A stretch of 64,000 nt of DNA from Mycolicibacterium neworleansense (GTDB lineage: Bacteria; Actinomycetota; Actinomycetes; Mycobacteriales; Mycobacteriaceae): positions 1,116,001 through 1,180,000 of the forward strand of contig NZ_CWKH01000003.1 of the NCBI RefSeq assembly GCF_001245615.1. Direction: 5' to 3'. The notes below the pieces were generated by a model. The model worked only from the letters and a program-made list of their open reading frames with translations, searched no databases and was not told where the DNA came from. Position numbers and translations under genes: made by a program. Shown here in pieces: positions 42,448 through 59,903 of this stretch (the first letter of the stretch is position 1; each line of letters starts with the position of its first letter).

Positions 42448-42508
42448 GCCGAAATGGCATTCCAGCAGAAGAAGTGCGAGTAATCGCCTGCCGGAATGCC
42501 GTTTCGGC
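42448..42508. repeat. 61-bp palindromic intergenic element, copy 2
   Basis: Arms 42448-42468 and 42488-42508 pair at 19 of 21 positions; the 19-base loop holds AAGTGCGAGTAAT, the reverse complement of the loop in copy 1. It lies between the convergent ends of otsB and the LacI gene, one base after the otsB stop and 7 bases from the LacI stop, so it could serve as a two-way terminator. Confidence 0.82.
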
Positions 42509-42515
42509 GAAAGGA

Positions 42516-43616
42516 TCAGGCCGGCGGGCCCGACGTCCGGCCCCGCACCACCTCGGTGGGAAGCACATCGATCACCGGCAGCCCGTCCCGCGGCGGATTG
42601 TGCAGCAGTTCACCGGCCCGGCGTCCCTTGGCCACACTGGACTGCACCACCGTGGACAGGCCGCGCCGCAACGCCTCCGGCACCCCGTCGAAACCGGTCA
42701 CCGTCATCTCCCCCGGCACGTAGATACCTCGCGAGCGCAGATAGTCCATGGCCGACAAGGCCAGCACGTCGGCAGTGCACATCAGCGCGGTGATGCGGGG
42801 ATTGGCGTCCAGCGCCACCTCGGCGGCCGCCCCTCCGGATGTCGGCAGATGGTCATAGCTCTCCACCACCGTCAGCGTGGCCGGGGCCAGGCCCGCGGCC
42901 GTCATCGCGTCATACACGCCGTGAATCCGCTCGCGCTGCACGTGAAAATGCGGGGACAACACCCGATCCGGGTCTGCCAGTGCGGGTTTCGTGCCCCCAT
43001 GCGGCCAGTCGCGGCCCAGCCGCATGGTCAGCAGGCCGATATCGCGATGGCCCAGCTCCAGCACGTGCTCGGCCAGCCGCCGCATCCCGCCGCGATCGTC
43101 GATGCTGATCCGCGACACCCCGGGAACGTCCTTGGGCTGATCCACCACCACGACCGGCAACTGACGCTGGCGCACCACCGGCAGATACGGATCATCGTCG
43201 GAGGCCGAATACACCACGAATCCGTCGACGCCGGCCGCGAGCACCGCCGCCGAGCCGTCCTCGAAACTGCGGTTGGGCCCGATCGCCACCAGCAGCAGCC
43301 CCTGCCCCACCGCCTCACACGATTCGGCAAGTCCGGCAACGAAATCCAGTGCGGCGGGGTCGCTGAAGGAGTAGTTGAGCGGCTCGGTGATGATCAACCC
43401 CACGGCTCCGGCCTTACGGGTCCGCAGAGAGCGCGCCACCGGATCCGGACCGGCGTAGCCCAGCCGTTTGGCCGCATCGAAGATCCGGTCGCGAAGCTCG
43501 GCGGACAACTGGTCAGGACGGTTGTAGGCGTTGGAGATCGTGGTCCGCGAAACCTTGAGTTCGGCCGCCAACGAAGCCAGAGTGGCCCGCCGTGGCGGGT
43601 GGGGACTCCGTGGCAT
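42516..43616 (-). CDS. LacI family transcriptional regulator
   Basis: 366 aa. The N-terminal HTH is ATLASLAAELKVSRTTISNAYNRPDQ with the hinge LGYAGPDPVARSLRTRKAG, then a periplasmic-binding-protein-like effector domain ending PTEVVRGRTSGPPA. By position it equals Rv3575c. Target and ligand are unknown; otsB (trehalose) and the zinc transporter (12 bases downstream of its start, same strand but later) are its neighbours. The loop VVVVDQPKDVPGVSRISIDDRGG is typical of sugar-sensing members. Confidence 0.87.
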   Translation of the reverse strand: MPRSPHPPRRATLASLAAELKVSRTTISNAYNRPDQLSAELRDRIFDAAKRLGYAGPDPVARSLRTRKAGAVGLIITEPLNYSFSDPAALDFVAGLAESCEAVGQGLLLVAIGPNRSFEDGSAAVLAAGVDGFVVYSASDDDPYLPVVRQRQLPVVVVDQPKDVPGVSRISIDDRGGMRRLAEHVLELGHRDIGLLTMRLGRDWPHGGTKPALADPDRVLSPHFHVQRERIHGVYDAMTAAGLAPATLTVVESYDHLPTSGGAAAEVALDANPRITALMCTADVLALSAMDYLRSRGIYVPGEMTVTGFDGVPEALRRGLSTVVQSSVAKGRRAGELLHNPPRDGLPVIDVLPTEVVRGRTSGPPA

Positions 43617-43627
43617 GCTTTCTGAGG

Positions 43628-44497
43628 CTAGTGGATCGCCGAATTCCTCACCCGGTCAACCGTCCACACCGCCAGCCAGAATCCGCAGGCGATCGTGACG
43701 ATCACGAAGCTCGGCGGCATGTTGAAGATTGCCGAGACCGTCAGCCCGGCCCACACCGACACCACGCTTATCCCGGTCGAGATGGCCATCGCGAGAATCG
43801 GCCGCGCGGTCACCATGATTGCCGTGGCGGCCGGGGTGACGACGAGGGCGAACAACAGCAGGGTGCCCACCGCCAGCACCGCCATCGTCACCGCGATCCC
43901 CAGCAGAACCATGAACAGCACCGACAAGGCGCGTACCGGCACCCCTTTGGCCTCGGCCACCTGTGCGTTGACCGACGCGAACAGCAATGGGCGAAAAACG
44001 AATACGACGGTGGCGGCCAGGACCACCAGCAGCGCGGTAAAGGTGAGCAGCTGCTGATGCGTGATGGCCAGCAGGTTGCCGAACAACACGTTTGTCAGCG
44101 TCGACGAGTTCTTGGTGGCCAACGAGTTGAAGAACAGACCGAACCCGGTGGCCAGGGCAAGCACCGTGCCGGTGGCCACCTCGCGGTCATGCGCCCGGCT
44201 GCCCAGCGCCCCGATCACCAGGGCGCCGCCGACACAGAACGCCAACAGCCCCATACCGACCGGAAGCCCGAGCAGCGCCGCACCGGTGGCGCCGGGAAGC
44301 CCGATGTGGGCCAGGGCGTGGGCGGCGAACGCGGTATTGCGCACGATGACGAAATATCCGATCAGGCCGGCGGCCAGTGCCACCAGCGTGCCGCCGATCA
44401 ATGCGTTGCGCATGAACGCGGAAGTCAGGATCTGCCACCAGTTGTGCTGGTAGCCCATCGCGAAGCTGCCCTGAGCCAGCAGCGCCACCGACATCAC
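43628..44497 (-). CDS. znuB: Zinc/manganese ABC transporter permease (ZnuB/AztB)
   Basis: 289 aa, about 8-9 membrane helices, of the ABC-3 metal permease family. It shows NTAFAAHALAHIGLPGATGAAL with the conserved His, and LLALVVTPAATA-like late helices (LLFALVVTPAATAIMV). The start overlaps the ATPase stop. It forms the membrane pore of the zinc importer with the ATPase and lipoprotein encoded just upstream on the same strand. The symbol is by family; the AztD-like neighbours suggest the AztABC subtype. Confidence 0.85.
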   Translation of the reverse strand: MMSVALLAQGSFAMGYQHNWWQILTSAFMRNALIGGTLVALAAGLIGYFVIVRNTAFAAHALAHIGLPGATGAALLGLPVGMGLLAFCVGGALVIGALGSRAHDREVATGTVLALATGFGLFFNSLATKNSSTLTNVLFGNLLAITHQQLLTFTALLVVLAATVVFVFRPLLFASVNAQVAEAKGVPVRALSVLFMVLLGIAVTMAVLAVGTLLLFALVVTPAATAIMVTARPILAMAISTGISVVSVWAGLTVSAIFNMPPSFVIVTIACGFWLAVWTVDRVRNSAIH

Positions 44498-45270
44498 CCA
44501 CTCCTCATGTACATCTGACCCAACGGGGTGTGGGCCACCTGCACCTTGGTTCCGTACAGGTGGGTCAGCAACTCGGCGTCCACCACCTCGTCGATGGCCG
44601 CGTGGTGGGCGTGCCCGTCGAGCAGATAGATCGCACTGTCGAGAACGCTCAGCAGCGGGTTGAGGTCATGGGCGACAACGAGAATGGTGACCCCGAGGTC
44701 CCGGTTGAGCCGGGCCAGCAACTGCACGATCTCGTGCTGGTTGCGGAGGTCGAGCGCGGCCAGCGGTTCGTCGAGGATGAGCATCTTCGGATGTCCGACA
44801 AGGGCATTGGCCAGGGCGATGCGCTGCCGCTGACCTCCCGACAGTTCCGACAGCCGCATGTTGGCGAACCCGGTGGCCTCGACCCATGCCAATGCCTCGT
44901 CGACCCGGGCCCGATCGGCGGCCGAGGTGCGGGTGAACCCCCACCGCCGTCCGGTGAGGCCCAGGGTCACCGCACCGCGGGCCCGGATGGCCTCCCCCGC
45001 GCCGGCGGCGTAATCCTGCGGGACGTAGCCGATGAGGTCGTTGTGCTCACCGGGCGCGCCACCGAGGACCTGCACGGACCCGGACGCCGCGGGCAGCAGG
45101 CCCAGCATGACCTGCAGCATGGTGGACTTGCCCGATCCGTTCGAGCCGATCAGCGCGACGATGCCGCCGGTGGGAATCTCGAAGGTGCCCTCTGACCAGA
45201 TCAGCCGCCCGCCGCGCACGGCACTGACGTCGTCGAAGACGAGGGCAGGCGGGTCTGCGCTGTCGGGCAC
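44494..45270 (-). CDS. znuC: Zinc ABC transporter ATP-binding protein (ZnuC/AztA)
   Basis: 258 aa ABC ATPase with Walker A GSNGSGKST, signature LSGGQRQRIAL, Walker B MLILDEP and the switch His in VAHDLN. GTG 45270 is chosen since it overlaps the substrate-binding protein stop by one base (TAGTG) and gives a normal ATPase N-terminus; a longer frame runs into that gene. It energises uptake by the adjacent permease. The operon order is binding protein, ATPase, permease. Confidence 0.87.
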   Translation of the reverse strand: MPDSADPPALVFDDVSAVRGGRLIWSEGTFEIPTGGIVALIGSNGSGKSTMLQVMLGLLPAASGSVQVLGGAPGEHNDLIGYVPQDYAAGAGEAIRARGAVTLGLTGRRWGFTRTSAADRARVDEALAWVEATGFANMRLSELSGGQRQRIALANALVGHPKMLILDEPLAALDLRNQHEIVQLLARLNRDLGVTILVVAHDLNPLLSVLDSAIYLLDGHAHHAAIDEVVDAELLTHLYGTKVQVAHTPLGQMYMRSG

Positions 45271-46241
45271 TAGGCCTGGATCCCGAGCGCTTTGGCAAGC
45301 GCCGTCAATTGGTTCACCTGCCAAGCCTCGAACGAATCCGCTCCCGGCGCCACCGTTTCGGTGACATCGACAACCGGAATACCCGCACCCTCGGCAGCGG
45401 TCCGGATCTGCTTGGGCAGTGAGCCCTCGGTTTGGGTGTTGTAGATCAGCACGTCGACGCCGCGATCGGCGAGCAGGCGCAGGAACGCGTCCAGATCCGC
45501 CGGCGACGGGTCGGTCTCGTTGGACGAGGCGGCCTGATAGCCCGCCGGGGTGGCGTTGACCAGGCCGACGGCGGCGGCCATGTCGTCGAACACCGCTTCG
45601 GTGGCGGCGTAGCGCTTACCGGTGGCCTTGGTCTTGATGTCGGTGATCAGTTGCTGGTAGGGCTGCATCGAGGTGGTGAACTCGGCGCGGCGCTGCGCGA
45701 AGTAGTCGCGTGCGTCGGGAGCCAGCTGACCCAGCTCCTCGGTCACCGTGTCGGCGACGCCGGTCACCGCGGTGGGGTTGTACCAGGCGTGCGGGTTGTT
45801 GGAGTGGTCGTGGGCATGGCCGTCCCCCTCGCCGTGGTCATGATCGTGATCGTCATCGCCGGTCCCTATGGCCGAGACGACGACGGCGTTGGGCGCGGTG
45901 CTCTGAGCCAGCTTGGCTGCCCACTCGTCGTAGTGTCCGCCGTTGATCACCACCAGCTGCGCGCCCTGGAACTTGGCCGCGTCCGCGGGTGAGGGCTCGA
46001 AGTCGTGCGGATCGACCGACGAGCCGGCCAGCACCGTGGTCACCTTCGCGCAGTCACCGCCCAGTGCGGACACGATGTCGCCCCACTGGTCGACGCTGAC
46101 GACGACGTTGACCGGTGTGGTCACGCAGTTCCCGGCGGACTCGGCCGGTTGGGTCTCATCGGAGCCGCAGGCGGCGAGGGCGAATGGGGTGGCCAGCAGC
46201 AACGCGGTGGCTGCGGCGCGGAGATTCAGGGGCGGGAGCAC
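45270..46241 (-). CDS. znuA: Zinc-binding lipoprotein of ABC transporter (ZnuA/AztC)
   Basis: 323 aa cluster A-I metal-binding protein. A lipoprotein signal (LRAAATALLLATPFALAAC) ends in the lipobox Cys. A His/Asp-rich loop, DDDHDHDHGEGDGHAHDH, follows the first metal histidine region and is typical of zinc rather than manganese carriers. I chose GTG 46241 since it yields a standard signal peptide; the open frame continues to 46277 but would run through a Zur-like palindrome. First gene of the zinc importer operon, divergent from a CobW gene. Confidence 0.87.
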   Translation of the reverse strand: MLPPLNLRAAATALLLATPFALAACGSDETQPAESAGNCVTTPVNVVVSVDQWGDIVSALGGDCAKVTTVLAGSSVDPHDFEPSPADAAKFQGAQLVVINGGHYDEWAAKLAQSTAPNAVVVSAIGTGDDDHDHDHGEGDGHAHDHSNNPHAWYNPTAVTGVADTVTEELGQLAPDARDYFAQRRAEFTTSMQPYQQLITDIKTKATGKRYAATEAVFDDMAAAVGLVNATPAGYQAASSNETDPSPADLDAFLRLLADRGVDVLIYNTQTEGSLPKQIRTAAEGAGIPVVDVTETVAPGADSFEAWQVNQLTALAKALGIQA

Positions 46242-46245
46242 GGCG

Positions 46246-46268
46246 ATAACGATAACCGTTTGCATTAG
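46246..46268. promoter_or_regulatory. Weak Zur-like site, znuA side
   Basis: The core CGATAACCGTTTGCA lies directly upstream of the znuA GTG and agrees at 15 of 23 positions with the strong site 46 bases away at 46292. It may be a second, weaker Zur site for the znu operon. Confidence 0.4.
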
Positions 46269-46291
46269 CGGATGCACGCCCGGATGATGAT

Positions 46292-46314
46292 TTATTGAAA
46301 ATCATTTTCATTAA
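46292..46314. promoter_or_regulatory. Zur-like operator, cobW side
   Basis: A 23-bp palindrome with one mismatched pair; the core is TGAAAATCATTTTCA, a perfect 15-bp palindrome of the Fur/Zur type. It ends 8 bases before the CobW gene start and lies between it and the zinc importer operon. Confidence 0.75.
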
Positions 46315-46322
46315 GGAGTGCG

Positions 46323-47453
46323 ATGTCCGACCTGCTGCCCGTCACCGTCCTGTCCGGCTTCCTCGGAGCCGGCAAGACCACGCTTCTCAACCACATCCTG
46401 GCCAACCGCGACGGCAGACGCGTCGCGGTGATCGTCAACGACATGAGCGAGGTCAACATCGACGCCGCACTCATCGCCGGGCAGGGACACCTCGACCGAA
46501 CCGAGGAGAAACTGGTCGAGCTGACCAACGGCTGCATCTGCTGCACACTGCGCGAGGACCTGGTGGAGGCCGTGGGCGCACTGGCGCGACAGAACCGGTT
46601 CGACCACCTGGTCATCGAGTCGACCGGCATCTCCGAGCCCATGCCGGTCGCCGCGACGTTCGAGTGGGAGTTCGAGGACGGGTTCCAGCTCGGCCGGCTG
46701 GCGAAACTGGACACGCTGGTGACGGTGGTCGACGCGTCCACCTTCCTGAGCGAGGTCATTCGCGGTGAAGGCCTGGCCGACCGGGATCTGGCCGCCGGCC
46801 AGGGCGATGCCCGCAGCATCGCCGACCTGCTCACCGATCAGGTGGAGTTCGCCGACGTCATCCTGCTCAACAAGACCGACCTGGTGAGCCCGGCGACCCT
46901 CGACACCGTCCAAACACTGCTGCGCAGGCTCAATCCGACCGCCAAGCTGATCCGGACCGATCACGGCGTCGTCGATCTCGGAGAGGTGCTGGGCACCGGG
47001 TTGTTCGATCCGGAGGCCGCCGCCCAGACCCCGGGCTGGGACGAGGAGATCGCCGATGGGCACACACCCGAGACCGAGGAGTACGGCATCAGCTCGATGA
47101 CCTTCCGCTCCGACCGGCCGTTTCACCCCCAGCGCCTCGGCGATGCGCTCGGTCAGGTGACAAGGGTGTTGCGCAGCAAGGGATTCTGCTGGATCGCCAG
47201 CCGCCCGACGATCGCCGCCATCTGGTCACAGGCCGGCCCGAACCTGACGATCGAGCCGGCACAGTATTGGTCGGGCACCGAGATCACCCCGGGTCAGGAG
47301 ATCGTGTTCATCGGAATCAAGCTCGAACGGGACAAGATCCAGCGACTGCTCGAAGAGGCCGTGCTGACCGACGCCGAAATCGCCGAAGGCGAGCAGGCCT
47401 GGACGGGCTACCCCGATCCGCTACCTTCCTGGAACCTCACCCACGCGCACTGA
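46323..47453 (+). CDS. CobW/COG0523 GTP-dependent zinc metallochaperone (ZagA/YciC-like)
   Basis: 376 aa. Walker A is GFLGAGKTT (K18), the metal motif is C71-I-C73-C74, and the guanine-specificity motif is LNKTD. The C-terminal CobW domain starts near [12 protein letters not shown]. All parts of a working COG0523 GTPase are present. In zinc-starved bacteria such proteins load zinc into priority enzymes. The ATG is preceded by AAGGAG and a Zur-like palindrome, so induction by zinc depletion is expected. Confidence 0.87.
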
Positions 47454-48273
47454 GGGGCTTGCGGCCCCACACGGTGTACATCGTCGGTGCCTGATAGACG
47501 AACGCCGGGTCTTCCATGGCCCGGCGGGCATCGGCCAATTCGGATTCGCTGATCGCTGCGCCGGCGAGCATCATGTCGTCGAGTTGCGCGAAGCTCTGCA
47601 CGAGAAACCCCGATTTCACGCTTCCGCCCCGCTCCACGGTCGAGCCGACGTCGCTGTCCGTGGCCTCCAGCCCCAACCGGTCGATGTCGGCCGGTAGCCG
47701 CGCACCGTAGTGCAGGTCCATCACGTTCGCGCCGATCAGGAACTCGTGACGCGCACGCAGATAGGCGTGAAAGCCGGCCGTCGCCGGATGGTCGGGGGTG
47801 AGCGACTGCGCGGTGCCGTAGTCGGGCTCCTCGACCACCAGCCATCCTCCTGGCCGGAGGGCGGCCGCCATGCGGCGGAGCACCTCGAGCGGGTCGCGCA
47901 TGTGCACCATCAGTACCCGGCAATGCACGAGGTCGTATGCGGCAGATTCGATCTCGTCGCACGTGACATCGCAGCGCCGGACCTCGATTCCCAGCGCGGG
48001 CAGGTCGTCGAGGAATCTGGGATCCAGGTCGGCGGCGACGACGTGGCCGGTGGGGCCGACGCGCGCACCGAGCCAGCGCGCGATCGATCCCTCACCCGCA
48101 CCGGCTTCGAAACACCGCCAACCCGGGCCGACTCCGATGGTGCCGAACGTGCGGATGGTCCGCGGATCGCCGATCGATTCGAGCAAGCGCAGCCGCTCGC
48201 GCTCCTGCGCCAACTCGTAATCGGCCGCGAAGTACCGCCCGCCCTCATCGGAATCGGCCGCCATGATTGACAT
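47437..48273 (-). CDS. Class I SAM-dependent methyltransferase
   Basis: 278 aa with motif [20 protein letters not shown], motif [14 protein letters not shown] and [14 protein letters not shown] as post-II region, ending [13 protein letters not shown]. Substrate unknown. ATG 48273 is a choice among in-frame starts at 48300, 48273 and 48264; no strong ribosome-binding site decides. It lies between the CobW and AztD-like genes but on the other strand from CobW, with a 17-base convergent overlap. No metal link is evident. Confidence 0.75.
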
Positions 48274-48303
48274 TCTCGATGCCCGACCGGGCCGGCTCAA
48301 GAA

Positions 48304-49464
48304 CTAGTGCTCGTGGCCCACCGTGCCGCTGAGCTCGTTCGGTGCCTGATCAAGCGTCACCGACGCGCCTTTCTCGCCGGATTCGACATCGACGGCGTGA
48401 ATCTGCCTGGTGGCCGGGTCGGCGACGAATACGTCATGGCCGCGGGCGAATACGCTCGGCCGGGGCTGCTGCCAGTCCTCGGGTTCGGTCCACGGCTCGA
48501 CTACCGCGATCGTCTTGACGGTGCGCCCAGATGCCGGATCGATGACATGGAGGTTGCCGTCGGTGCCCAGGATGAGGCCTTCGGCATGCGGGCCGCGGGC
48601 CAGCGACCGGAACGAGTAGCTGACCGACTGCGGCAACGACACCAGACGCAACTGGTCGGTCGCGGTGTCGACGAGGGCGAACCGGTTGGGCCGCTCCAGC
48701 TCGGCATCGGGATCGACCTTGTAGTCGCCCAGCGCCACCGGTGAATCCTGGTGTCCGCGAACCGTACCCACCCGGCCGTATTCGTCCGGGGCGGCGATCT
48801 TGGTGAACGCACCGTCGGCGAAGGTCAACACACCGTTCTCACAGCCGAATACGACGGTGGAGGTTTCCGCGACCGTTTCTCCGTGAATGCCGGGGCAGTC
48901 AGCGCTACGGGCGATCTCCCGGTCTGAGGCGTCGAACGCGACCGCACCGCTGCGCTCGTCGGAATTGCCTTCGCTGCGCACCCAGCTTCCGTCATCGAGA
49001 ACCACGGCGACGCCGTGATGCGGCTGCGGCGCCTTCATGCCTCTCATCCGCGGTACGGAGTCGGTCAGCTCGTGGGGATCGAGCACGGTGATCTCGCCGG
49101 ATCCGTCGGCGAACAGCACGGTGTGTTCACCATGGGCGACGACGTGCCCCGGCTCGTCGGCCATGAAAGTGGTGTCGGTCAGCTGCCCTGCCGATGCGTC
49201 GAGGAGCCGAAAACCCTGGTCGGTGGACACCAGCACATGTGCATCGTCACCGGCGGGGTTGACCCGCAGGAATCCCTCCAGCGGAACGTCGGCCTTGACC
49301 TGCAAGCTGTTGCCGTCCAACACATACAACCCACCGTCATAGGTGACCACCAGCGGATCGGGTATCGGCTCCCGCGCCGCCGGCTGGGTTTCTCCACCTC
49401 CACAACCGGTCAGCGCCGCCGCGAGCGCACCGACCAGCATGACGACCTTCGTGGAATTCGGCAT
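48304..49464 (-). CDS. AztD-like zinc chaperone lipoprotein (beta-propeller)
   Basis: 386 aa lipoprotein: signal VVMLVGALAAALTGC with lipobox, then a series of short beta-blade repeats (YDGGLYVLDGNSLQV, TDQGFRLLDASAGQL, TDGNLHVIDPASGRT). A KAPQPHHGVAVVLDDG segment and a C-terminal GHEH could bind metal. This plan fits AztD, a periplasmic zinc chaperone that passes zinc to the AztC binding protein. AAGGAGAACGA precedes the ATG. It follows a related gene by 24 bases in an operon behind a Zur-like site. Confidence 0.65.
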   Translation of the reverse strand: MPNSTKVVMLVGALAAALTGCGGGETQPAAREPIPDPLVVTYDGGLYVLDGNSLQVKADVPLEGFLRVNPAGDDAHVLVSTDQGFRLLDASAGQLTDTTFMADEPGHVVAHGEHTVLFADGSGEITVLDPHELTDSVPRMRGMKAPQPHHGVAVVLDDGSWVRSEGNSDERSGAVAFDASDREIARSADCPGIHGETVAETSTVVFGCENGVLTFADGAFTKIAAPDEYGRVGTVRGHQDSPVALGDYKVDPDAELERPNRFALVDTATDQLRLVSLPQSVSYSFRSLARGPHAEGLILGTDGNLHVIDPASGRTVKTIAVVEPWTEPEDWQQPRPSVFARGHDVFVADPATRQIHAVDVESGEKGASVTLDQAPNELSGTVGHEH

Positions 49465-49488
49465 TCGTTCTCCTTGCTTGTTGTGGAA

Positions 49489-50601
49489 TCACCAGCCCGC
49501 GGCTGCCAGAAAATCCGGGACGACGTTCGTGCGGTGCGTGCGCACCACCCGTAAGCCGTTCGCATAGTCGATTTCGTGTACCGCCCTGGCCGCTGGGTCG
49601 TTGACGTAGGCGCGTCCGGCGCCGACCTCGATCACCGGCGTGCCGACCGGAGCGGCGAGCAGTTCGAGGCGGCCGACGCTCACGCCTGCCGCCATGTCGA
49701 GCGCGTGCAGCGCGCCGTCGCGGGTCACGGCCAGCACGGTGGTGGCGTCGGCGGTGTTCACCGCGACCACACCGGGAAGCCGCATCGACGTCCAGCGGCG
49801 GCCGTTGAGCAGCCATACCTCGTCCCCGGCCACCGCGGTCACGGAGTTTCCCGTCCGGCGGTAACCGAAGGGCCCCAACGGTATTGACGGCCGAGACACT
49901 CCGAACGGAATGCCGTCGGCCACCAGGGCCCCGCCGCGCCGGGAGATCCGCAGCGCGCCGTCGCGGCACCCGAGCACCACCGCCCGGCGCAATACCGCCG
50001 CGCCGGTAACCTCCGGGCAGTGCCCGAGGACCGTGGCCTGGCCGGCGCCGTGCCTGACCAGTCCCGGCCCGGTCACGGTCAGCACGTCATTGCCGAATGC
50101 GACCGCAGCCCTTGCATTGTCGGCCCCCGCCACGGCCGCCCCCGACACGTCTTCGCGCGGGAAGGCGTCCCGGTCCAGTGATTCGACGGAGCCGTCGCCG
50201 CGAAGCACGACGGTCGACGCACCGGCGCCGTGCACCGCGGCGACCCGGCCGTCGATGCGGCCCACGACTGCGGGCGACACCTCGTAGTAATGCGAGTGAT
50301 CACCGTGGTCATACGTCCACGCCCCGCCGTCGAGGATCGTCAGACCGGCCTCCTCGTGCAGGTAGGCATACCGGCCGTCGCCACTGACGGCATTGACGAG
50401 ACCGACCTGCCCCAGGCCGGTCTCGGCAGCGTCCGCGACATCGAGCACCGCGGCCGCACCCGTCTCACGCTCCACCAGCACCAGGCGCGTCACCGGCCGC
50501 TCGGCCTCACGAGGGGTCGCCGACCGCTCGGCATCGGGGGCCGCCGAGCACCCGGCCGACAGCACAGCCACCAGCGCTATCGCCCGGCCCCAGTTCAGCA
50601 C
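49489..50601 (-). CDS. AztD-like lipoprotein with His-rich DHGDHSH motif
   Basis: 370 aa. The lipoprotein signal ends in LSAGC, and the mature part is a beta-propeller-like repeat protein. Near residue 97 lies YDHGDHSHYYE, a likely zinc-binding loop. Cys pairs (GHCPEV, LGCRDG) are present further on. It is related in plan to the downstream AztD-like gene and probably hands metal to the znuA product. It is first in a two-gene operon with a Zur-like palindrome about 20 bases upstream of the start. Confidence 0.6.
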   Translation of the reverse strand: MLNWGRAIALVAVLSAGCSAAPDAERSATPREAERPVTRLVLVERETGAAAVLDVADAAETGLGQVGLVNAVSGDGRYAYLHEEAGLTILDGGAWTYDHGDHSHYYEVSPAVVGRIDGRVAAVHGAGASTVVLRGDGSVESLDRDAFPREDVSGAAVAGADNARAAVAFGNDVLTVTGPGLVRHGAGQATVLGHCPEVTGAAVLRRAVVLGCRDGALRISRRGGALVADGIPFGVSRPSIPLGPFGYRRTGNSVTAVAGDEVWLLNGRRWTSMRLPGVVAVNTADATTVLAVTRDGALHALDMAAGVSVGRLELLAAPVGTPVIEVGAGRAYVNDPAARAVHEIDYANGLRVVRTHRTNVVPDFLAAAGW

Positions 50602-50616
50602 CCCACACTCTTATCA

Positions 50617-50639
50617 TTAATGAAATTCATTTTCAATAA
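50617..50639. promoter_or_regulatory. Zur-like operator between AztD-like operon and bluB
   Basis: The core TGAAATTCATTTTCA (50621-50635) agrees with the 46292 site at 20 of 23 positions over the extended palindrome. It lies in the 81-base gap between the divergent AztD-like gene and bluB and could control both. Confidence 0.75.
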
Positions 50640-50682: not shown

Positions 50683-51342
50683 GTGTCCGAGCACGCCTTC
50701 AGCCCCGACGAGCGCAGCGCCGTCTACCGGGCCATCGCCGAACGCCGGGATATGCGCAGGTTCGTCCCCGGCAGCTCCGTGCCGCCCGAGGTGCTCGGTC
50801 GGCTGCTGCAGGCCGCCCACGCGGCGCCGAGCGTCGGCCTGATGCAGCCGTGGCGCTTCATCCGCATCACCGACAATGCGCTGCGCGGCAAGATCCACGC
50901 CCTCGTCGACGAGGAACGCATCCATACCGCCGACGCCCTCGGCGCCCGCGGCGACGAGTTCCTGGCACTGAAGGTGGAAGGCATCCTCGACTGCGCCGAG
51001 CTGTTCGTCGTCGCCCTCGGCGAGAACCGCGACCGGCACATCTTCGGCCGCCGGACCCTGCCCCAGATGGACCTGGCCTCGGTGTCCTGCGCGATCCAGA
51101 ACATGTGGCTGGCCGCACGGGCCGAAGGGCTCGGCATGGGCTGGGTGTCGATCTTCGAGCCGGCGCCACTGGGCGAGCTGATGGGCATGCCCGCCGACGC
51201 CGAGCCGGTGGCCATCCTGTGCCTGGGCCCGGTACCCGAGTTCCCGGACCGGCCGGTACTGGAGATCGAGCACTGGACAACCGGGCGCCCGCTGCCCGAA
51301 TTCGTGGCCGAGAACGGCTGGCCGACCGACGCATCGTCTTAG
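50683..51342 (+). CDS. bluB: 5,6-dimethylbenzimidazole synthase BluB
   Basis: 219 aa nitroreductase-fold protein. It has RRDMRRFVPGS at the FMN site and the BluB-type HAAPSVGLMQPWRFI and EGLGMGWVSIFEP segments. BluB breaks down FMNH2 with oxygen to make dimethylbenzimidazole, the lower ligand of cobalamin. GTG 50683 is the start. It leads a four-gene run (pxpA, permease, DUF1980) and is divergent from AztD-like genes across a Zur-like site. A cobalamin riboswitch and BtuFCD-like genes lie 3-7 kb on. Confidence 0.85.
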   Translation: MSEHAFSPDERSAVYRAIAERRDMRRFVPGSSVPPEVLGRLLQAAHAAPSVGLMQPWRFIRITDNALRGKIHALVDEERIHTADALGARGDEFLALKVEGILDCAELFVVALGENRDRHIFGRRTLPQMDLASVSCAIQNMWLAARAEGLGMGWVSIFEPAPLGELMGMPADAEPVAILCLGPVPEFPDRPVLEIEHWTTGRPLPEFVAENGWPTDASS

Positions 51343-53853: not shown

Positions 53854-54516
53854 CTACTGCCCCCGCGGCCTCGTGAGAGAACAGTCACCACAGTTCGACC
53901 CGCCCGGCACCCGGTAGTACAGACAACAGCTGCGCCGCCGGAACGTCAGGCCGGTCAGGTCGCCGGTGCCGGCCAGATCGCCGGTGCCCAACAGCGATTC
54001 GGTGACCGCGACGACGTCGTCGCGCAATTCCGGTCGCACCCGGGCCAGTTCGTGCGCCGCCGCCACCAGCGCTGCCGCGGCATTGCCGTAGAGCAGCCGC
54101 GGCGCGATCTTGACCCGCAGTCCGGCAGCCAGCGGCTCGAGGTGCTCGCTGACGACCCTTCGGTACAGCTGCGGTGGCAGTGCGCCGTCGACGGGTGCGC
54201 CCACGGGGACAGGCAATCGCAACTCGGTACTGCCGGCGTGGCGTTGCAGATCGGTGAGGTCGGGCAGCACACCGTATCGCAGCGCGCAGGCCAGCAGGGG
54301 CGACCACAACCGAGAGGCATGACTGAACTGGACCAGGGACGCACCGATACGCAGGTCGGTCGTGCCGCACCGCTGCGCGGTCGCGCTGACGAGGTCGGCG
54401 CAACCCCCGCCATAGCAGCGTTGCACCGGAACCCAGCCGGCCGGGTCCCCGCCGACTGTGATCGCGAAAAAGCCCCCGTACAAGGCGATTTCACTCAGCT
54501 GATCACCGATGTTCAC
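53854..54516 (-). CDS. FhuF-like (2Fe-2S) protein of the BtuFCD operon
   Basis: 220 aa. The C-terminus has RRSCCLYYRVPGGSNCGDCSL, a C-C-x10-C-x2-C cluster motif of the FhuF ferric-siderophore reductase family. The rest is a helical domain typical of these proteins. GTG 54516 overlaps the ATPase stop (GTGA). Because the operon carries a cobalamin riboswitch, the electron-transfer role may be corrinoid or cobalt reduction rather than siderophore iron release; this is inference. Confidence 0.75.
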   Translation of the reverse strand: MNIGDQLSEIALYGGFFAITVGGDPAGWVPVQRCYGGGCADLVSATAQRCGTTDLRIGASLVQFSHASRLWSPLLACALRYGVLPDLTDLQRHAGSTELRLPVPVGAPVDGALPPQLYRRVVSEHLEPLAAGLRVKIAPRLLYGNAAAALVAAAHELARVRPELRDDVVAVTESLLGTGDLAGTGDLTGLTFRRRSCCLYYRVPGGSNCGDCSLTRPRGQ

Positions 54517-55298
54517 GGCCTCACCGTTACCTTCGCGGGGACGGCGACCTGTGGCCTGCCGGTATCTTCGTCGAGGGTGATCCGGGCCTCGACCCCGTAC
54601 ACCTCGAACAACAACCGCTCGGTGAGAATGTCGGCCGGAGCGCCGAGCGCCACCAGCCGGCCACCGTCGAGGACACAGATCCGATCACAGTACGCCGCGG
54701 CGAGATTGAGGTCGTGCAATGCGGCGACCACCGTCGCACCGGTCTGCCGCAACAGGTGCAGGGCCTCGTGTTGGTGGCGCAGGTCGAGGTGGTTGGTGGG
54801 TTCGTCGAGCACGATCACGTCGGTGCGCTGAGCCAGCGCCCGGGCGATGAGGACCCGTTGCTTCTGCCCTCCCGACAGCCGGCCGTAGCCGGCCCCGCTG
54901 AGGTCTGCGATGTCCAGCGCCGCCAGTGCGGCGCCGATGATCTCCCGGTCCTCACGGCTGTCCGCATCGAAGGAGCGCTTGTACGGGGTGCGCCCCATCG
55001 CCACCATGTCGAACACCGTGAGCTCGAAATCGCCGGTGGATTCCTGCAATACCGCCGCGACCCGGCGTGCGGCCTGCTTGCCCGGCAGCTTCCACACATC
55101 GGTGCCGTCGACCAGCACCCGCCCGGTGCTCGGCCGCTGCGCCCGGTACAACGTGCGCAGCAGCGTGGTCTTGCCCGCGCCGTTGGGGCCCACGACCGCC
55201 AGCATCTCACCCGGGACGACCGACAACGACACGTCGGCGATCAACGGTGTACCGCGGACCGACACCGACACCGCCTCGAACGTCACGCCCGCCGTCAT
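54513..55298 (-). CDS. ABC transporter ATP-binding protein, BtuD/FecE type
   Basis: 261 aa ATPase: Walker A GPNGAGKTT, signature LSGGQKQRVLIARAL, Walker B VIVLDEPTNHLD, switch His in ALHDLN. It belongs to the FecCD-type group importing siderophores, haem or cobalamin. The start overlaps the permease stop (ATGA) and its stop overlaps the FhuF-like gene. The upstream riboswitch points to corrinoid transport. Confidence 0.87.
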   Translation of the reverse strand: MTAGVTFEAVSVSVRGTPLIADVSLSVVPGEMLAVVGPNGAGKTTLLRTLYRAQRPSTGRVLVDGTDVWKLPGKQAARRVAAVLQESTGDFELTVFDMVAMGRTPYKRSFDADSREDREIIGAALAALDIADLSGAGYGRLSGGQKQRVLIARALAQRTDVIVLDEPTNHLDLRHQHEALHLLRQTGATVVAALHDLNLAAAYCDRICVLDGGRLVALGAPADILTERLLFEVYGVEARITLDEDTGRPQVAVPAKVTVRP

Positions 55299-56311
55299 AT
55301 CTGGGCCTTACGCCGCATCAACCACAGGAAGAACGGCCCTCCGACGAGCGCGGTGAGTATCCCCACCGGCAGTTCCTCGGGCGCGGCCACGGTCCGGGCC
55401 ACGATGTCGCACAGCACCAGAAACGCCGCGCCAAGCAAGGTGGCGGCCGGCAACGCCCGACGGTGATCGGCACCGACCAGCAGACGCACCACATGCGGCA
55501 TGATCAGCCCGACAAACCCGATCGTGCCGCTCACCGCGACCATGGCTCCGACCATGAGCGCCACGACCACGAACATTCCGGCGCGGAACCGGTGCACGTC
55601 CAACCCGAGTGAGGCGGCCGCCTCTTCGCCGGTGTAGAGCAGGTTCAGGGACCGGGTGAAGGCCAGCAGCACCACCACGCCGACGAGCACCGCGGCGGCG
55701 GGCACCCAGACCATGCGCCAGGTGGCACCGCCCAGACCGCCCAGCATCCACCGCACGGCCGCCTGCGTCTTGTGCGGATCGTCGGATGTCACGATGAGCA
55801 GACTGGCCACCGCCGACAGCACTTCAGCCACCGCCACCCCGGCCAGGATCAACCGTACGGTCGTCATCCGGCCTCCCGAGCGGGCCAGGAAGTACACCGC
55901 GACGAGGGCGAGGAAGGCCCCGAGGAAGGCCGCCAGCGGCACGGTGACCACCTGCAGTGCGCCGGCGCCGAACACCAGGACGGCCACGGCACCGACCGAG
56001 GCGCCCGAGGAAACCCCCAGCAGCATGGGATCTGCCAGCGGATTGCGCACCACCGCCTGCAGCGCCATGCCGCACGCCGCCAGACCGGCGCCGACCACCG
56101 CTCCCAGGACCACGCGGGGCAGCCGGGCGTCGAGCACGATGGATTCCCTTACCGCAGGCCAACTCTGATCGACGAGGCCCGGTGTGACGGCGTGCACTAC
56201 GATGGCCCACACCTGCCCCGGCGGGATCGACACCGAACCGATTGCCACACCGGCGGTCATCGCCGCGAGCAACAGCGCGGCCAGCGCAGCCATGGCCGGC
56301 CGGTAGGGCAT
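55295..56311 (-). CDS. FecCD-family ABC permease, BtuC-like
   Basis: 338 aa, about 9-10 helices. It has the family core LPRVVLGAVVGAGLAACGMALQAVVRNPLADPMLLGVSSGAS and GFVGLIMPHVVRLLVGADHR; only short parts identify it. ATG 56311 overlaps the binding-protein stop by one base (TGATG). It would form the channel homodimer with the ATPase. Substrate class (siderophore or cobalamin) is decided here only by the riboswitch upstream of the operon. Confidence 0.87.
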   Translation of the reverse strand: MPYRPAMAALAALLLAAMTAGVAIGSVSIPPGQVWAIVVHAVTPGLVDQSWPAVRESIVLDARLPRVVLGAVVGAGLAACGMALQAVVRNPLADPMLLGVSSGASVGAVAVLVFGAGALQVVTVPLAAFLGAFLALVAVYFLARSGGRMTTVRLILAGVAVAEVLSAVASLLIVTSDDPHKTQAAVRWMLGGLGGATWRMVWVPAAAVLVGVVVLLAFTRSLNLLYTGEEAAASLGLDVHRFRAGMFVVVALMVGAMVAVSGTIGFVGLIMPHVVRLLVGADHRRALPAATLLGAAFLVLCDIVARTVAAPEELPVGILTALVGGPFFLWLMRRKAQI

Positions 56312-57294
56312 CAGACAAACCGATCCGGGTGCAGCTGCCGGGCCAGGGCATCCACCGCCCGGCCCACCCGCACGCCCACCACCACCGAGGACAACGGCAG
56401 CACCGCGAACCGCTGGTGCTCGACTGCCGGAACATGTTGCAACAGAGGATGTTCGGTCAGGAATCTCTTCTTGCCTGCGACGGGCTGGTCTCCGTAGTCG
56501 TAGATCACGATGACCTCGGGTGCGCGCTCGGCGAACTGCTCGAACGACACGTCGCCCCACACCTTGGGGACGTCGGCGAACACGTTGACGCCGCCGGCGG
56601 CCTCGATCATCAGGTTGCCGATGCCCTTGCCGCCCGAGGTGAACACGGTGGCCTCACCGCTGTCGTAGACCGCGACCCGCACCGGCCGGACGCCGCGCAC
56701 TTGCGCCTGGGACTGCGCCAGCTGACCGTGCAGCTTCTCGATCTGCTGCTCAGCCCGGTCACTGACGCCGAAAATTGTTCCGAGATTCCGTATTTCGTCG
56801 TCCACGGTGGACATGGCAACGGGTTCGGACAGGCAATCCTCGATGTTGAGATAGGTGTGAACTCCGGCCTCGGTCAGGCGTTGCCTGCCGCGGCCCTCTT
56901 TCTCGTCGAAGGCACTTTCCCAGCCGCCGTAGACGAAATCGGGTTCCACGGCCAGCAGCGCTTCATACGACGGATACTCCTGGGCGAGCACCGGAATGCT
57001 GTCGTATGCCGCCTGGTACTCGGGCAGGATCCGGTCGTCGAGGTAGGACGTGCCGACCATGGAATGCTGCAGGCCCAGCGCCAACAGCGTCTCGATCGCA
57101 TGCTGATTGAGAGCGACCGCACGGGCGGGCGGGCGGTCATATGTGGTGCTGACACCGCAATTGTCGATGGTGACCGGGAATCCCGGTGGGGCGTTGCCTG
57201 CCGCCTCCGGCGCCGCCGTGGCGGCGCACCCCGATGTCACCAGTGCCGACGCCAATGCGGCGATCAGCCAACGAGCAGCCATGGGCCTACCCAT
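56311..57294 (-). CDS. Substrate-binding lipoprotein, BtuF-like
   Basis: 327 aa cluster A-II binding protein. A lipoprotein signal (RWLIAALASALVTSGC) is followed by PPARAVALNQHAIETLLALGL, DRILPEY and a central helix, the usual two-lobe layout. ATG 57294 is chosen because GGAG lies just upstream and a proper signal peptide results; ATG 57282 is an alternative. It is first gene of the importer operon, and its 5' leader holds the cobalamin riboswitch at 57331-57410. It should bind cobalamin or a precursor (inference). Confidence 0.82.
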   Translation of the reverse strand: MGRPMAARWLIAALASALVTSGCAATAAPEAAGNAPPGFPVTIDNCGVSTTYDRPPARAVALNQHAIETLLALGLQHSMVGTSYLDDRILPEYQAAYDSIPVLAQEYPSYEALLAVEPDFVYGGWESAFDEKEGRGRQRLTEAGVHTYLNIEDCLSEPVAMSTVDDEIRNLGTIFGVSDRAEQQIEKLHGQLAQSQAQVRGVRPVRVAVYDSGEATVFTSGGKGIGNLMIEAAGGVNVFADVPKVWGDVSFEQFAERAPEVIVIYDYGDQPVAGKKRFLTEHPLLQHVPAVEHQRFAVLPLSSVVVGVRVGRAVDALARQLHPDRFV

Positions 57295-57330
57295 CCTCTC
57301 CGGGGAGATCCGCCCCAGTACTTGCGAGGT

Positions 57331-57410
57331 GGCGACTGCGGTGTGTATCTGGCTATCACAGTGGCGGGACCGCGCCGGATTCACACCGGCTTCCACGATC
57401 CGCAGTCGCC
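57331..57410 (-). promoter_or_regulatory. Cobalamin riboswitch (compact class)
   Basis: On the minus strand the leader reads GGAAGCCGGTGTGAATCCGG then CGCGGTCCCGCCACTGTGA, the canonical core of cobalamin riboswitches, followed by an AGCCAGATAC B12-box-like stretch. The element is closed by a perfect 11-bp P1 stem (57331-57341 with 57400-57410). Downstream, GGGG and CCCC arms near 57300-57315 could fold next to the Shine-Dalgarno sequence, suggesting translational control. TACGAT at 57422-57427 could be its own -10 box; read-through from rpsR is also possible. Confidence 0.88.
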
Positions 57411-57429
57411 CTAACGCCCCGATCGTAGG

Positions 57430-57684
57430 TCAAGCAGGGCCGACGACCGGCAGCAGCGCCATCTCCCTGGCGTTCTTGATCGCCGTGGCGACCTGCCGCT
57501 GTTGTTGCGGGGTGAGCCCGGTGATGCGCCGGGACCGGATCTTGCCCCGCTCGCTGATGAAGGTGCGCAGTAGGTGGACGTCCTTGTAGTCGACCTCGGT
57601 CACGCCGAGGGCGTCCAGCTGATTGCGCCTGGGTTTTTTCAGTTCCGTTGCCGGAGGACGTTTCCGGGGAGTCTTCTTGGCCAT
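57430..57684 (-). CDS. rpsR2: 30S ribosomal protein S18, zinc-independent (C-) paralogue
   Basis: 84 aa S18 with basic N-terminus [10 protein letters not shown] and the core [27 protein letters not shown]. There is no Cys, so it is the C- form that replaces the zinc-binding S18 during zinc starvation. ATG 57684 overlaps the rpsN2 stop (TGATG), with an in-frame GTG one codon earlier. It is last of the four C- ribosomal genes, 20 bases before the riboswitch. Confidence 0.92.
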
Positions 57685-57989
57685 CACCAGCTCGACTTCC
57701 GCACACCGGGCAATTCACCGCGATGCGCCATTTCCCGCACGCGGACCCGCGAGAGCCCGAACTTTCGCAGGTGCCCGCGCGGGCGGCCGTCGACCGCGTC
57801 CCGGTTGCGCAGCCGCACCGGACTCGAATCGCGGGGCAGGCGCTGCAGAGCCGAGACCGCCGCGGCCCGCTGCTCACCGGTGGTGGCCGGATTGCGAATG
57901 ATGTCTTTGAGCTCAGCGCGCCGTTCGGCGTAGCGCTCCACGAGTTTCCGGCGCTGCTCGTTCTTGACGATCTTGGACAGCTTGGCCAT
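57684..57989 (-). CDS. rpsN2: 30S ribosomal protein S14, zinc-independent (C-) paralogue
   Basis: 101 aa long-form S14 ending [19 protein letters not shown] with no CxxC pair, the C- type. The start overlaps the rpmG stop (TGATG). Synthesised when zinc is scarce, it lets the cell release zinc bound in ribosomes. Family facts are well established; the Zur link here rests on the palindrome at 58419. Confidence 0.93.
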
Positions 57990-58153
57990 CAGCGCTCCTC
58001 ACGGAAGTCGACGTGGCGGCGCACGATCGGGTCGTACTTGCGCAACACGATGCGGTCCGGGTCGTTGCGGCGGTTCTTGCGGGTGACGTAGGTGTACCCG
58101 GTTCCCGCGGTCGACTTCAGCTTCACGATCGGCCGGATGTCGGTGCTGGCCAT
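57989..58153 (-). CDS. rpmG2: 50S ribosomal protein L33, zinc-independent (C-) paralogue
   Basis: 54 aa, short and easily missed: starts [17 protein letters not shown], then [20 protein letters not shown], ending HVDFREER. The two CxxC pairs of the zinc form are absent. Its ATG overlaps the rpmB2 stop and its stop overlaps the rpsN2 start (TGATG each), fixing frame and boundaries. Confidence 0.93.
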
Positions 58154-58389
58154 CAGATCTTCTCCCCTCGGCTACGCAGCCGGGCCACCACGGTCTCGAT
58201 GCCGTCCCGGTCGATCACCTTGATTCCCTTGGCACTGACCCGCAGCCGGACCCGGCGCCCCTCGCTCGGCAGGTAGTAGGTCTTGGTCTGGATGTTCGGG
58301 TTCCAGCGTCGGCGACTGCGCTTGTGCGAGTGCGACACCGTGTTGCCGAACCCGGGCGAGCGCCCGGTGACTTGGCAGTGGGCAGACAT
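58153..58389 (-). CDS. rpmB2: 50S ribosomal protein L28, zinc-independent (C-) paralogue
   Basis: 78 aa L28 with [22 protein letters not shown]. One Cys (C5) remains near the N-terminus, but the other three zinc ligands are lost, so it is a C- form. AAGGAG precedes the ATG. It leads the rpmB-rpmG-rpsN-rpsR operon and is divergent from the MRF-type gene across a Zur-like site. Confidence 0.92.
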
Positions 58390-58418
58390 CGGTCTCCTTC
58401 GGATGGGGTAGCCTCACG

Positions 58419-58441
58419 ATAATGATAATCGTTTTCAACAA
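58419..58441. promoter_or_regulatory. Zur-like operator of the C- ribosomal operons
   Basis: The core TGATAATCGTTTTCA lies in the 72-base gap between rpmB2 and the MRF-type gene and agrees at 17 of 23 positions with the 46292 site. The overlapping GATAATGATAATCGTTTTC matches the classical Fur-family box at 17 of 19 positions. Confidence 0.75.
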
Positions 58442-58461: not shown

Positions 58462-59652
58462 GTGCGAACCCCTGTGGTGCTGATCGCCGGTCAAGGTGAC
58501 AGCGACGGCGTAGCGGAAGAACTGGGCCGCAGGCCGGGAACCGTGCTGGTGCGCCATGCCTTCGACGGCCAAGTGGTCGTGCGGACCGTGTCCGATGGCG
58601 CCGGCACATCCGAACTCGGCCTCGAGCTCGCCCACGGTTGCGTGTCCTGCACCGTCCGCGACGACCTGCTGATCCTGTTGCGGCGCCTGCACCGGCGCAG
58701 CGACGTGGAGCGCATCGTCGTGCAGTTGATGCCGTGGCTGGAGGCCGAGCCGGTGTGCTGGGCCATCAACACCATCCGGGTCCACGTCGGTCCCGGCTAC
58801 ATCGACGGCCCTGCCGCCCGCGATGTCACCATCGAAGCGGTGATCGCCTCCCTGGACGCGACGGTCTGGCTGCAGCAGTCGGTCGGCGACGAGGAACTAC
58901 CCGACGGACGCACGGTGGCACAGGTGGTGGTCGGGCAAGCCGAATTCGCCGACATGCTGGTGCTCAACGAGCCCGACGCCACCACCCTCGCCGTGCTGCG
59001 CCGGCTCGCGCCCCGCGCCCGCATCACTGTGGGCCCCGACCGGGTCGAGCTCGGCCTGGCGCATCTGGAACCGAACAGCCCGCGCGGGCGCACCTCGACC
59101 GCGCACGATCCCCTACTGGCCGGCGAACCACCTCTGGAGCCCGACGACGAGGTGATCATCGTGGAATTCGCGGCGCGCCGGCCGTTCCACCCTCTGCGCC
59201 TGCACGAGGCGGTGGACCTGCTACTCGACGGCGTCGTGCGCACCCGCGGCCGGGCCTGGCTGGCCAACCGTCCAGCCGACGTCATGTGGATCGAATCCGC
59301 GGGCGGCGGAATGCATTTCAGCAATGCCGGAAAATGGCTGGCGGCAATGGACGCGACCGAGCGGGCCTACACCGACCCCGAACGCGTGGCGATCGCCGCG
59401 ATCGACTGGCACCACCAATTCGGTGACCGCCACATCTCGCTGACGGTGCTGGTGTGCGGTGCCCGCCCCGGCGACGTCATCGAGGCGCTGCGCGGCGCGC
59501 TGCTCACCGACGACGAGCTGGCGCGACCGGACGAGTGGGCCGATTACCCCGACCCGTTCGGCGATTGGCACGAAGAACCGTGTCAGCCCGGAATCGACGA
59601 GCCCGCCGCATCCGTCCATCAGGAAGTCCACCAGGAAGGCGAATCACAGTGA
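58462..59652 (+). CDS. mrf: MRF-type CobW-like protein (ribosome hibernation factor recruiting)
   Basis: 396 aa, CobW-like in layout: an N-terminal G-domain remnant, a C60-V-S-C63 motif in place of CxCC, and a C-terminal CobW domain starting near [13 protein letters not shown]. The P-loop is degenerate ([13 protein letters not shown], no GKT), so GTP hydrolysis is unlikely. Mycobacterial proteins of this place and type (Mrf) recruit the hibernation factor Mpy to C- ribosomes in zinc-starved cells. It starts at GTG 58462 after GGGAGG, and its stop overlaps rpmE2 (GTGA). Confidence 0.8.
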
Positions 59653-59903
59653 AACCCGATATCCACCCCGACTATCACCCCGTGGTGTTTCAGGACGCCT
59701 CGACCGGCACCAAGTTCCTGACCCGGTCGACGGCCACCAGCGAGCGCACCATCGAGTGGCCCACCGCCGACGGCATCCAGACCTATCCGCTGATCGTCGT
59801 CGACGTCACCAGCGACTCACACCCGTTCTGGACCGGCACCGCCCGGCACCTCGACTCGGCCGGGCAGGTGGAGAAATTCCGACGTCGCTACGGACACATC
59901 TAG
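59649..59903 (+). CDS. rpmE2: 50S ribosomal protein L31 type B (zinc-independent)
   Basis: 84 aa type B L31: starts with [19 protein letters not shown], then [10 protein letters not shown] and the end [11 protein letters not shown]. It lacks the CxxC of L31 type A. GTG 59649 overlaps the mrf stop (GTGA). Replaces the zinc-containing L31 under zinc shortage and is likely in the mrf transcript under Zur control. Confidence 0.93.

Follow-up and report, generated by a model that had tools for sequence, protein, structure and literature searches.

Why should a cobalamin riboswitch lie directly behind a zinc-starvation ribosomal operon, and does the importer operon that it heads answer to cobalamin, to zinc, or to both? 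This arrangement occurs in a 64,000-nucleotide stretch of Mycolicibacterium neworleansense (contig NZ_CWKH01000003.1, positions 1,116,001 to 1,180,000; hereafter the window, in whose own numbering coordinates are given). Inspection of its sequence had suggested that the riboswitch stands between rpmB2-rpmG2-rpsN2-rpsR2, four ribosomal genes behind a Zur box, and an operon for a BtuFCD-like ATP-binding cassette (ABC) importer and a FhuF-like protein, and this placement is confirmed. We favour, with somewhat better than even confidence, the reading that these genes form an operon for a corrinoid (cobalamin) ABC importer with two inputs, a riboswitch that lets cobalamin veto translation and a transcript supply from a weak promoter of its own together with zinc-starvation read-through. 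The elements of the riboswitch and the genes that it heads are as follows.

57323..57419, minus strand: cobalamin riboswitch aptamer, 97-nt form without the J6/3 hairpin (RF00174; alignment of leaders)
57400..57410, minus strand: P1, 5' strand (read from the sequence)
57331..57341, minus strand: P1, 3' strand (read from the sequence)
57295..57329, minus strand: P13-like hairpin of the expression platform
56311..57294 (start possibly 57282), minus strand: BtuF-like lipoprotein, cluster of FecB/BtuF-type binding proteins (Pfam Peripla_BP_2, 87.6 bits)
55295..56311, minus strand: BtuC-like FecCD permease (PF01032, 331.1 bits)
54513..55298, minus strand: BtuD-like ATPase (PF00005 ABC_tran, 108 bits)
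53854..54516, minus strand: FhuF-like 2Fe-2S protein (PF11575 FhuF_C, 32.8 bits, cut-off 20.5)

The covariance-model search that the original prediction had proposed as a check matched RF00174, the Rfam cobalamin riboswitch, at 57419-57323 on the minus strand (score 37.9 bits, E 4.8e-6, where the gathering score is 31.5), and this was the sole Rfam match above gathering score within the window. As foreseen, P1 (57410-57400 with 57341-57331) forms a perfect helix of 11 bp, and its pairing is kept at 95.0% across 24 leaders. The leader alignment shows that the J6/3 hairpin is missing from the aptamers of the window and of loci L036, L037 and L041, and present in close relatives. Both helices of the P13-like hairpin are paired at 100% in all 24 leaders and are nearly invariant; the 3' strand is GGAGAGG (57295-57301), likely the Shine-Dalgarno sequence. 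Judged from the leaders, bound cobalamin likely hides the ribosome site by means of this predicted hairpin. The ATG at 57282 is a more probable btuF start than position 57294, because relatives keep ATG or GTG at that place in an alignment read by eye.

To which neighbour does the riboswitch belong? A search with the BtuF-like protein returned 80 loci, 15 of them mycobacterial and the rest mostly from Streptomyces and Streptosporangiales. The four ribosomal genes lie directly upstream of the importer in 14 of the 15 mycobacterial loci, and in none of the other 65 within the stretch examined (with short flanks in a few). Rfam scans of 34 of the 80 loci, made in three batches, put the riboswitch in front of the importer operon in 32 (all 11 mycobacterial loci, then 11 of 12 and 10 of 11), and 21 of these 32 have no ribosomal genes upstream. 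The exceptions are L051, where it was missed, and L103, where it lies 2.3 kb away; in L105 it stands before a btuD-first operon. A BtuF match at E 1e-80 or better occurs in 46 of the 396 genomes of the genus, and the riboswitch heads the operon in 30 of 31 mycobacterial genomes (29 of the 46, plus two with more distant copies). Thus, the riboswitch belongs to the importer.

Which substrate does the importer carry? A binding protein, a FecCD permease and an ABC ATPase stand together in one operon, which is the BtuFCD layout, and with the FhuF-like gene the predicted families (Peripla_BP_2, FecCD, ABC_tran, FhuF_C) are all present; the names taken strictly do not hold, as all four proteins fall under NCBIfam equivalog cut-offs. 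With the B12 models, BtuF scores 53.2 (cut-off 234), BtuC 230.5 (334) and BtuD 115.9 (281), and the FhuF-like protein reaches 35.5 of the 63.85 set for TIGR03951. The NCBIfam BtuF/C/D models come from distant Gram-negative members, and we therefore call the importer BtuFCD-like only. The three proteins score highest with models of putative F420-0 ABC transporters, also under cut-off (TIGR03868/03869/03873: 203.3 of 392.4, 305.5 of 437.35 and 256.3 of 372.4). Among solved structures, the best fold matches of the BtuF-like protein are uncharacterised, and binders of siderophores and haem match it just as closely as BtuF does; this fold comparison does not settle the ligand. The scores tell against cobalamin, and scores and folds alike could suit an importer of another ligand, be it a metallophore for zinc, haem, F420-0 or a siderophore, with the riboswitch as an indirect gauge of cobalt or cobalamin. 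A Zur-regulated, B12-like ABC system in P. aeruginosa has likewise been discussed as importing chelated zinc or cobalamin (PMC4542158; here and below, published sources are cited from part of their text). We nevertheless regard another ligand as quite unlikely, given that the operon begins with a cobalamin riboswitch in 32 of 34 relatives in one set and in 30 of 31 in the other, even where there is no zinc link, and we infer that cobalamin is the substrate.

The original prediction had set the importer against a usual reliance of mycobacteria on BacA for B12 uptake. The genome holds three SbmA_BacA-family matches and a second BtuF-type locus, so the importer is not the only possible B12 route. 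That second locus (L181, 4985-8770) has two tandem binding proteins, a permease and an ATPase behind a borderline RF00174 match.

On the zinc side, the following features lie upstream of the riboswitch.

58417..58440, plus strand: Zur box between the divergent MRF gene and rpmB2 (matrix score 34.0)
58153..58389, minus strand: rpmB2, L28 in its zinc-independent form, no CxxC pair (Pfam Ribosomal_L28, 93 bits)
57989..58153, minus strand: rpmG2, L33, no cysteine (Pfam, 57.7 bits)
57684..57989, minus strand: rpsN2, S14, no cysteine (Pfam, 89.3 bits)
57430..57687, minus strand: rpsR2, S18, no cysteine, last gene of the Zur operon proper (Pfam, 92.5 bits)
57422..57427, minus strand: -10-like hexamer TACGAT, placed two bases beyond the rpsR2 stop and 10-15 nt ahead of the P1 region ([TC]ANNAT conserved in leaders)
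58462..59652, plus strand: divergent MRF-type COG0523 GTPase, same Zur box (NF047431, 555.8 bits, cut-off 375)
59649..59903, plus strand: rpmE2, type B L31 (NF002462, 120.4 bits, cut-off 86)

With a Zur box before rpmB2 and zinc-independent S18, S14, L33 and L28 proteins that lack CxxC, this is an altRP operon, as the sequence had suggested. The Zur matrix was built from 12 M. smegmatis boxes (PMC7174638, Table 6) and gave no score of 20 or above in 30 random Markov-1 sequences of 64 kb; the window box closely resembles the one that M. smegmatis has for MSMEG_6069. The rpsR2 stop codon (57430-57432) lies 19 nt from P1 and 10 nt from the Rfam edge of the riboswitch, in agreement with the predicted gap of about 20 bases, and a scan for terminators in this gap likewise found no minus-strand site. 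The gap does hold the -10-like hexamer. Among leaders of the window type, [TC]ANNAT occurs 15-17 nt before the P1 region in 25 of 25 (24 distinct), and in the other mycobacterial leader type one TANNNT lies 45-48 nt before a conserved GGAAGCCGG in 13 of 13; as the leaders are related rows, these counts speak of conservation and are not independent proof. The hexamer in all 25 leaders suggests that read-through is probably not the sole source of transcript, and that it adds to a predicted promoter of the importer operon itself.

Does zinc starvation reach the importer genes? Published RNA-seq of M. smegmatis supports a Zur-dependent rise of the cassette in a relative. Deletion of zur raised rpsR 5108-fold, MSMEG_6064 (a lipoprotein) 27.4-fold, 6063 (a permease) 8.7-fold and 6062 6.0-fold, and the chelator TPEN raised MSMEG_6064 6.5-fold (PMC7174638). 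MSMEG_6062 is called a permease in that paper; it is similar to the ATPase Rv1473. By analogy, these data fit read-through into the importer genes. The fall at the rpsR/6064 boundary may reflect a higher base line from the operon's own promoter, termination, or a closed riboswitch, the last because M. smegmatis makes cobalamin (PMC8088520). The drop from roughly 5100-fold (rpsR) to 27-fold (MSMEG_6064) would also suit an ordinary riboswitch importer that has its own promoter and merely lies behind a Zur operon, its zinc effect being leaky, functionless read-through; the -10-like elements in all 25 leaders of one type and all 13 of the other, and the many relatives with the riboswitch but without a Zur box, point the same way. 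Yet MSMEG_6064 also rises under TPEN (PMC7174638), and a Zur box is kept upstream in 24 of 26 rows of one clade though the intervening genes differ. We consider functionless leakage possible but rather improbable.

The distribution of the Zur box among relatives bears on the age of the zinc link. Of 42 mycobacterial loci, 26 have a Zur box scoring at least 30 at a distance of 0.55-1.2 kb upstream of btuF. On a BtuF tree of 43 rows, the Zur label changes three times, which fits one gain at the base of a 26-row clade and two losses (clade support 91 of 100, just below the star threshold; midpoint root). Between box and importer, the window clade has the four ribosomal genes, L153, L173, L174 and L177 have rpmB2, rpmG2 and a WhiB gene, and L155 and L175 have WhiB alone, so that the box persists without ribosomal genes; L176 has a complete ribosomal operon and, after it, a second Zur box immediately preceding WhiB and the riboswitch. 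Box and importer therefore stay together while their neighbours change. The zinc link is younger than the link between riboswitch and importer, and it has been kept.

Several other associations were seen around these loci. In L153, L155, L173-L177, L179, L180 and L183, the interval from the Zur box to the riboswitch-importer unit contains WhiB-like ORFs, identified by Pfam in L175 and L176 and by motif alone elsewhere; the product is a possible Fe-S regulator within a zinc operon. L184 (6680-7280) joins zinc and cobalamin control in a different way, with a diverged BtuC-BtuD-BtuF-FhuF operon in the order riboswitch, short ORF, Zur box, btuC. Weaker Zur-like sites (25.4, 20.7 and 19.7) lie at L047 11182, L169 10456 and L041 10565, near ArsP_1 permease and TIGR03943 genes adjoining the cassette. 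Streptomyces caelestis (L068, 10145-12841) has an MRF-like gene and S14/L28 genes at most 4 kb downstream of its BtuFCD-like operon. S18-like matches lie about 1.1 kb downstream of the importer in L156, L157 and L159-L162, perhaps in the primary rpsF-ssb-rpsR operon; these loci are of the type with about 50% identity. FhuF-like relatives without an importer adjoin recA in L197, L200, L203, L207, L210 and L213.

A number of observations weigh against joint control by zinc and cobalamin as we read it. In P1, changes on both sides of a pair fill 13 cells compared with 5.1 in shuffles, which counts in favour, but the pairs so changed are no more numerous than in shuffles (446 of 500 as high), and P13 varies hardly at all among the 24 leaders. 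A simple sigma-70 scan requiring a -35 box found no promoter. The Zur box is missing in all 13 loci of the type with about 50% identity and also in L154 and M. lehmannii (two copies of one locus), and within the clade it has been lost in 2 of 26 loci. In M. smegmatis, no TPEN value is given for 6063 and 6062, which the authors classed as zinc-independent (PMC7174638); this is evidence against strong zinc control of the cassette as a whole. The orthology with M. smegmatis is itself drawn from gene order and from a similar genome, G485, which has the same gene order and no FhuF gene after the ATPase and would fit the M. smegmatis numbering. Dual control as first predicted, by zinc depletion through read-through and shut-off by cobalamin, stands for a real riboswitch tied to the importer and for the published rise on zur deletion in M. 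smegmatis, and gives way where read-through would be the only source of transcript. The logic is probably a promoter of the operon's own with a zinc-starvation top-up, followed by a cobalamin veto, and not a strict zinc switch.

In the mechanism that we propose, Zur would leave its box when zinc is scarce, and read-through from the zinc-independent ribosomal protein operon would enter btuF-btuC-btuD, with further transcript from the weak promoter beside the aptamer. Bound cobalamin would make the P13-like hairpin hold the Shine-Dalgarno sequence, vetoing translation, so that import would be highest when zinc and cobalamin are both short. MetE is a zinc enzyme of methionine synthesis, and MetH is the alternative used when cobalamin is available. 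More cobalamin would move methionine synthesis from MetE to MetH, and our guess is that zinc matters here through the sparing of MetE, a guess preferred because of this enzymology and because metE in the same genome is preceded by its own cobalamin riboswitch (79.3 bits). A second Zur box of the window lies beside another cobalamin gene.

50615..50638, plus strand: Zur box between bluB and a divergent AztD-like gene (matrix score 35.0)
50683..51342, plus strand: bluB, 5,6-dimethylbenzimidazole synthase (TIGR02476, 230 bits, cut-off 150)

The bluB start lies 68 nt after this Zur box, which it has in common with the divergent AztD-like gene, and 14 of the 18 loci compared carry a Zur box at most 200 nt from bluB, where L049 and L178 come from a single genome. 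The box may act on the divergent zinc genes alone; the M. smegmatis zur paper (PMC7174638) does not name the bluB locus tag. The surrounding region is a zinc island, with zinc-uptake-like ABC genes, a ZigA/CobW-like GTPase and AztD-like genes at 42500-50601, and with overlapping Zur boxes at 46290 and 46244 at the ZigA/CobW-like GTPase.

These parts could form a wider zinc-cobalamin circuit in one mycobacterial clade, an extension that we hold only tentatively. In zinc starvation, Zur would raise corrinoid import, and perhaps lower-ligand synthesis through bluB; cobalamin would shut off MetE through the metE riboswitch, MetH would take over and zinc would be spared. The FhuF-like protein would reduce imported cob(III)alamin, and the importer riboswitch would end import once cobalamin suffices. 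The original prediction had speculated instead that cobalt or a corrinoid replaces zinc functions, and nothing in our analysis supports this beyond the co-location of zinc and cobalamin genes. Imported corrinoids as a source of cobalt to replace zinc in enzymes strike us as very improbable: an importer repressed by cobalamin through a riboswitch is ill-suited to bulk metal supply, and no gene for cobalt removal from corrinoids turned up, though none was searched for.

How does this locus compare with known systems? It resembles known RF00174-headed btuFCD-type importers in its aptamer over gathering score, its FecCD/ABC/binding-protein operon and its conserved P1 and core, and differs from them in its 97-nt form without the J6/3 hairpin and in following the final gene of a Zur operon at a distance of 19 nt. 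The Zur-controlled altRP operon of M. smegmatis has the same gene order, Zur box and divergent MRF-rpmE2 (PMC5912738) and is described as four genes; in the window, these are succeeded by the riboswitch and importer. In the zur paper on M. smegmatis, 6062-6063 are entered as an "iron uptake system" and 6064 has unknown function (PMC7174638). A 2025 review gives predicted btuFCD analogs of M. smegmatis and M. abscessus, from RegPrecise and with unproven function, names Rv1819c as the sole assigned mycobacterial B12 importer, and does not use the word zinc in its main text (PMC12713380). MSMEG_4558-4560, named as M. smegmatis btuFCD in 2021 (PMC8088520), is another locus than the window-type importer. 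Closest on the zinc side is P. aeruginosa PA2911-PA2914, a Zur-site operon with a B12-permease-like permease that is up in zinc depletion, for which cobalamin import was suggested as a possibility; unlike the window operon, it is a TonB receptor system, and the cited part of the paper mentions no riboswitch (PMC4542158). In the open-licence literature we found nothing joining a Zur box with a riboswitch and cobalamin and, by title or abstract start, nothing on bluB with Zur, zinc and cobalamin. The riboswitch half and the zinc half are each known, and their joining is a new combination of known parts.

If both inputs work together, zinc starvation, which is met in hosts and soils, would be wired to the uptake of vitamin B12. 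The importer is a candidate for a dedicated mycobacterial B12 importer with a built-in test, and the M. smegmatis zur-deletion RNA-seq already shows the effect, under the label of an iron uptake system (PMC7174638).

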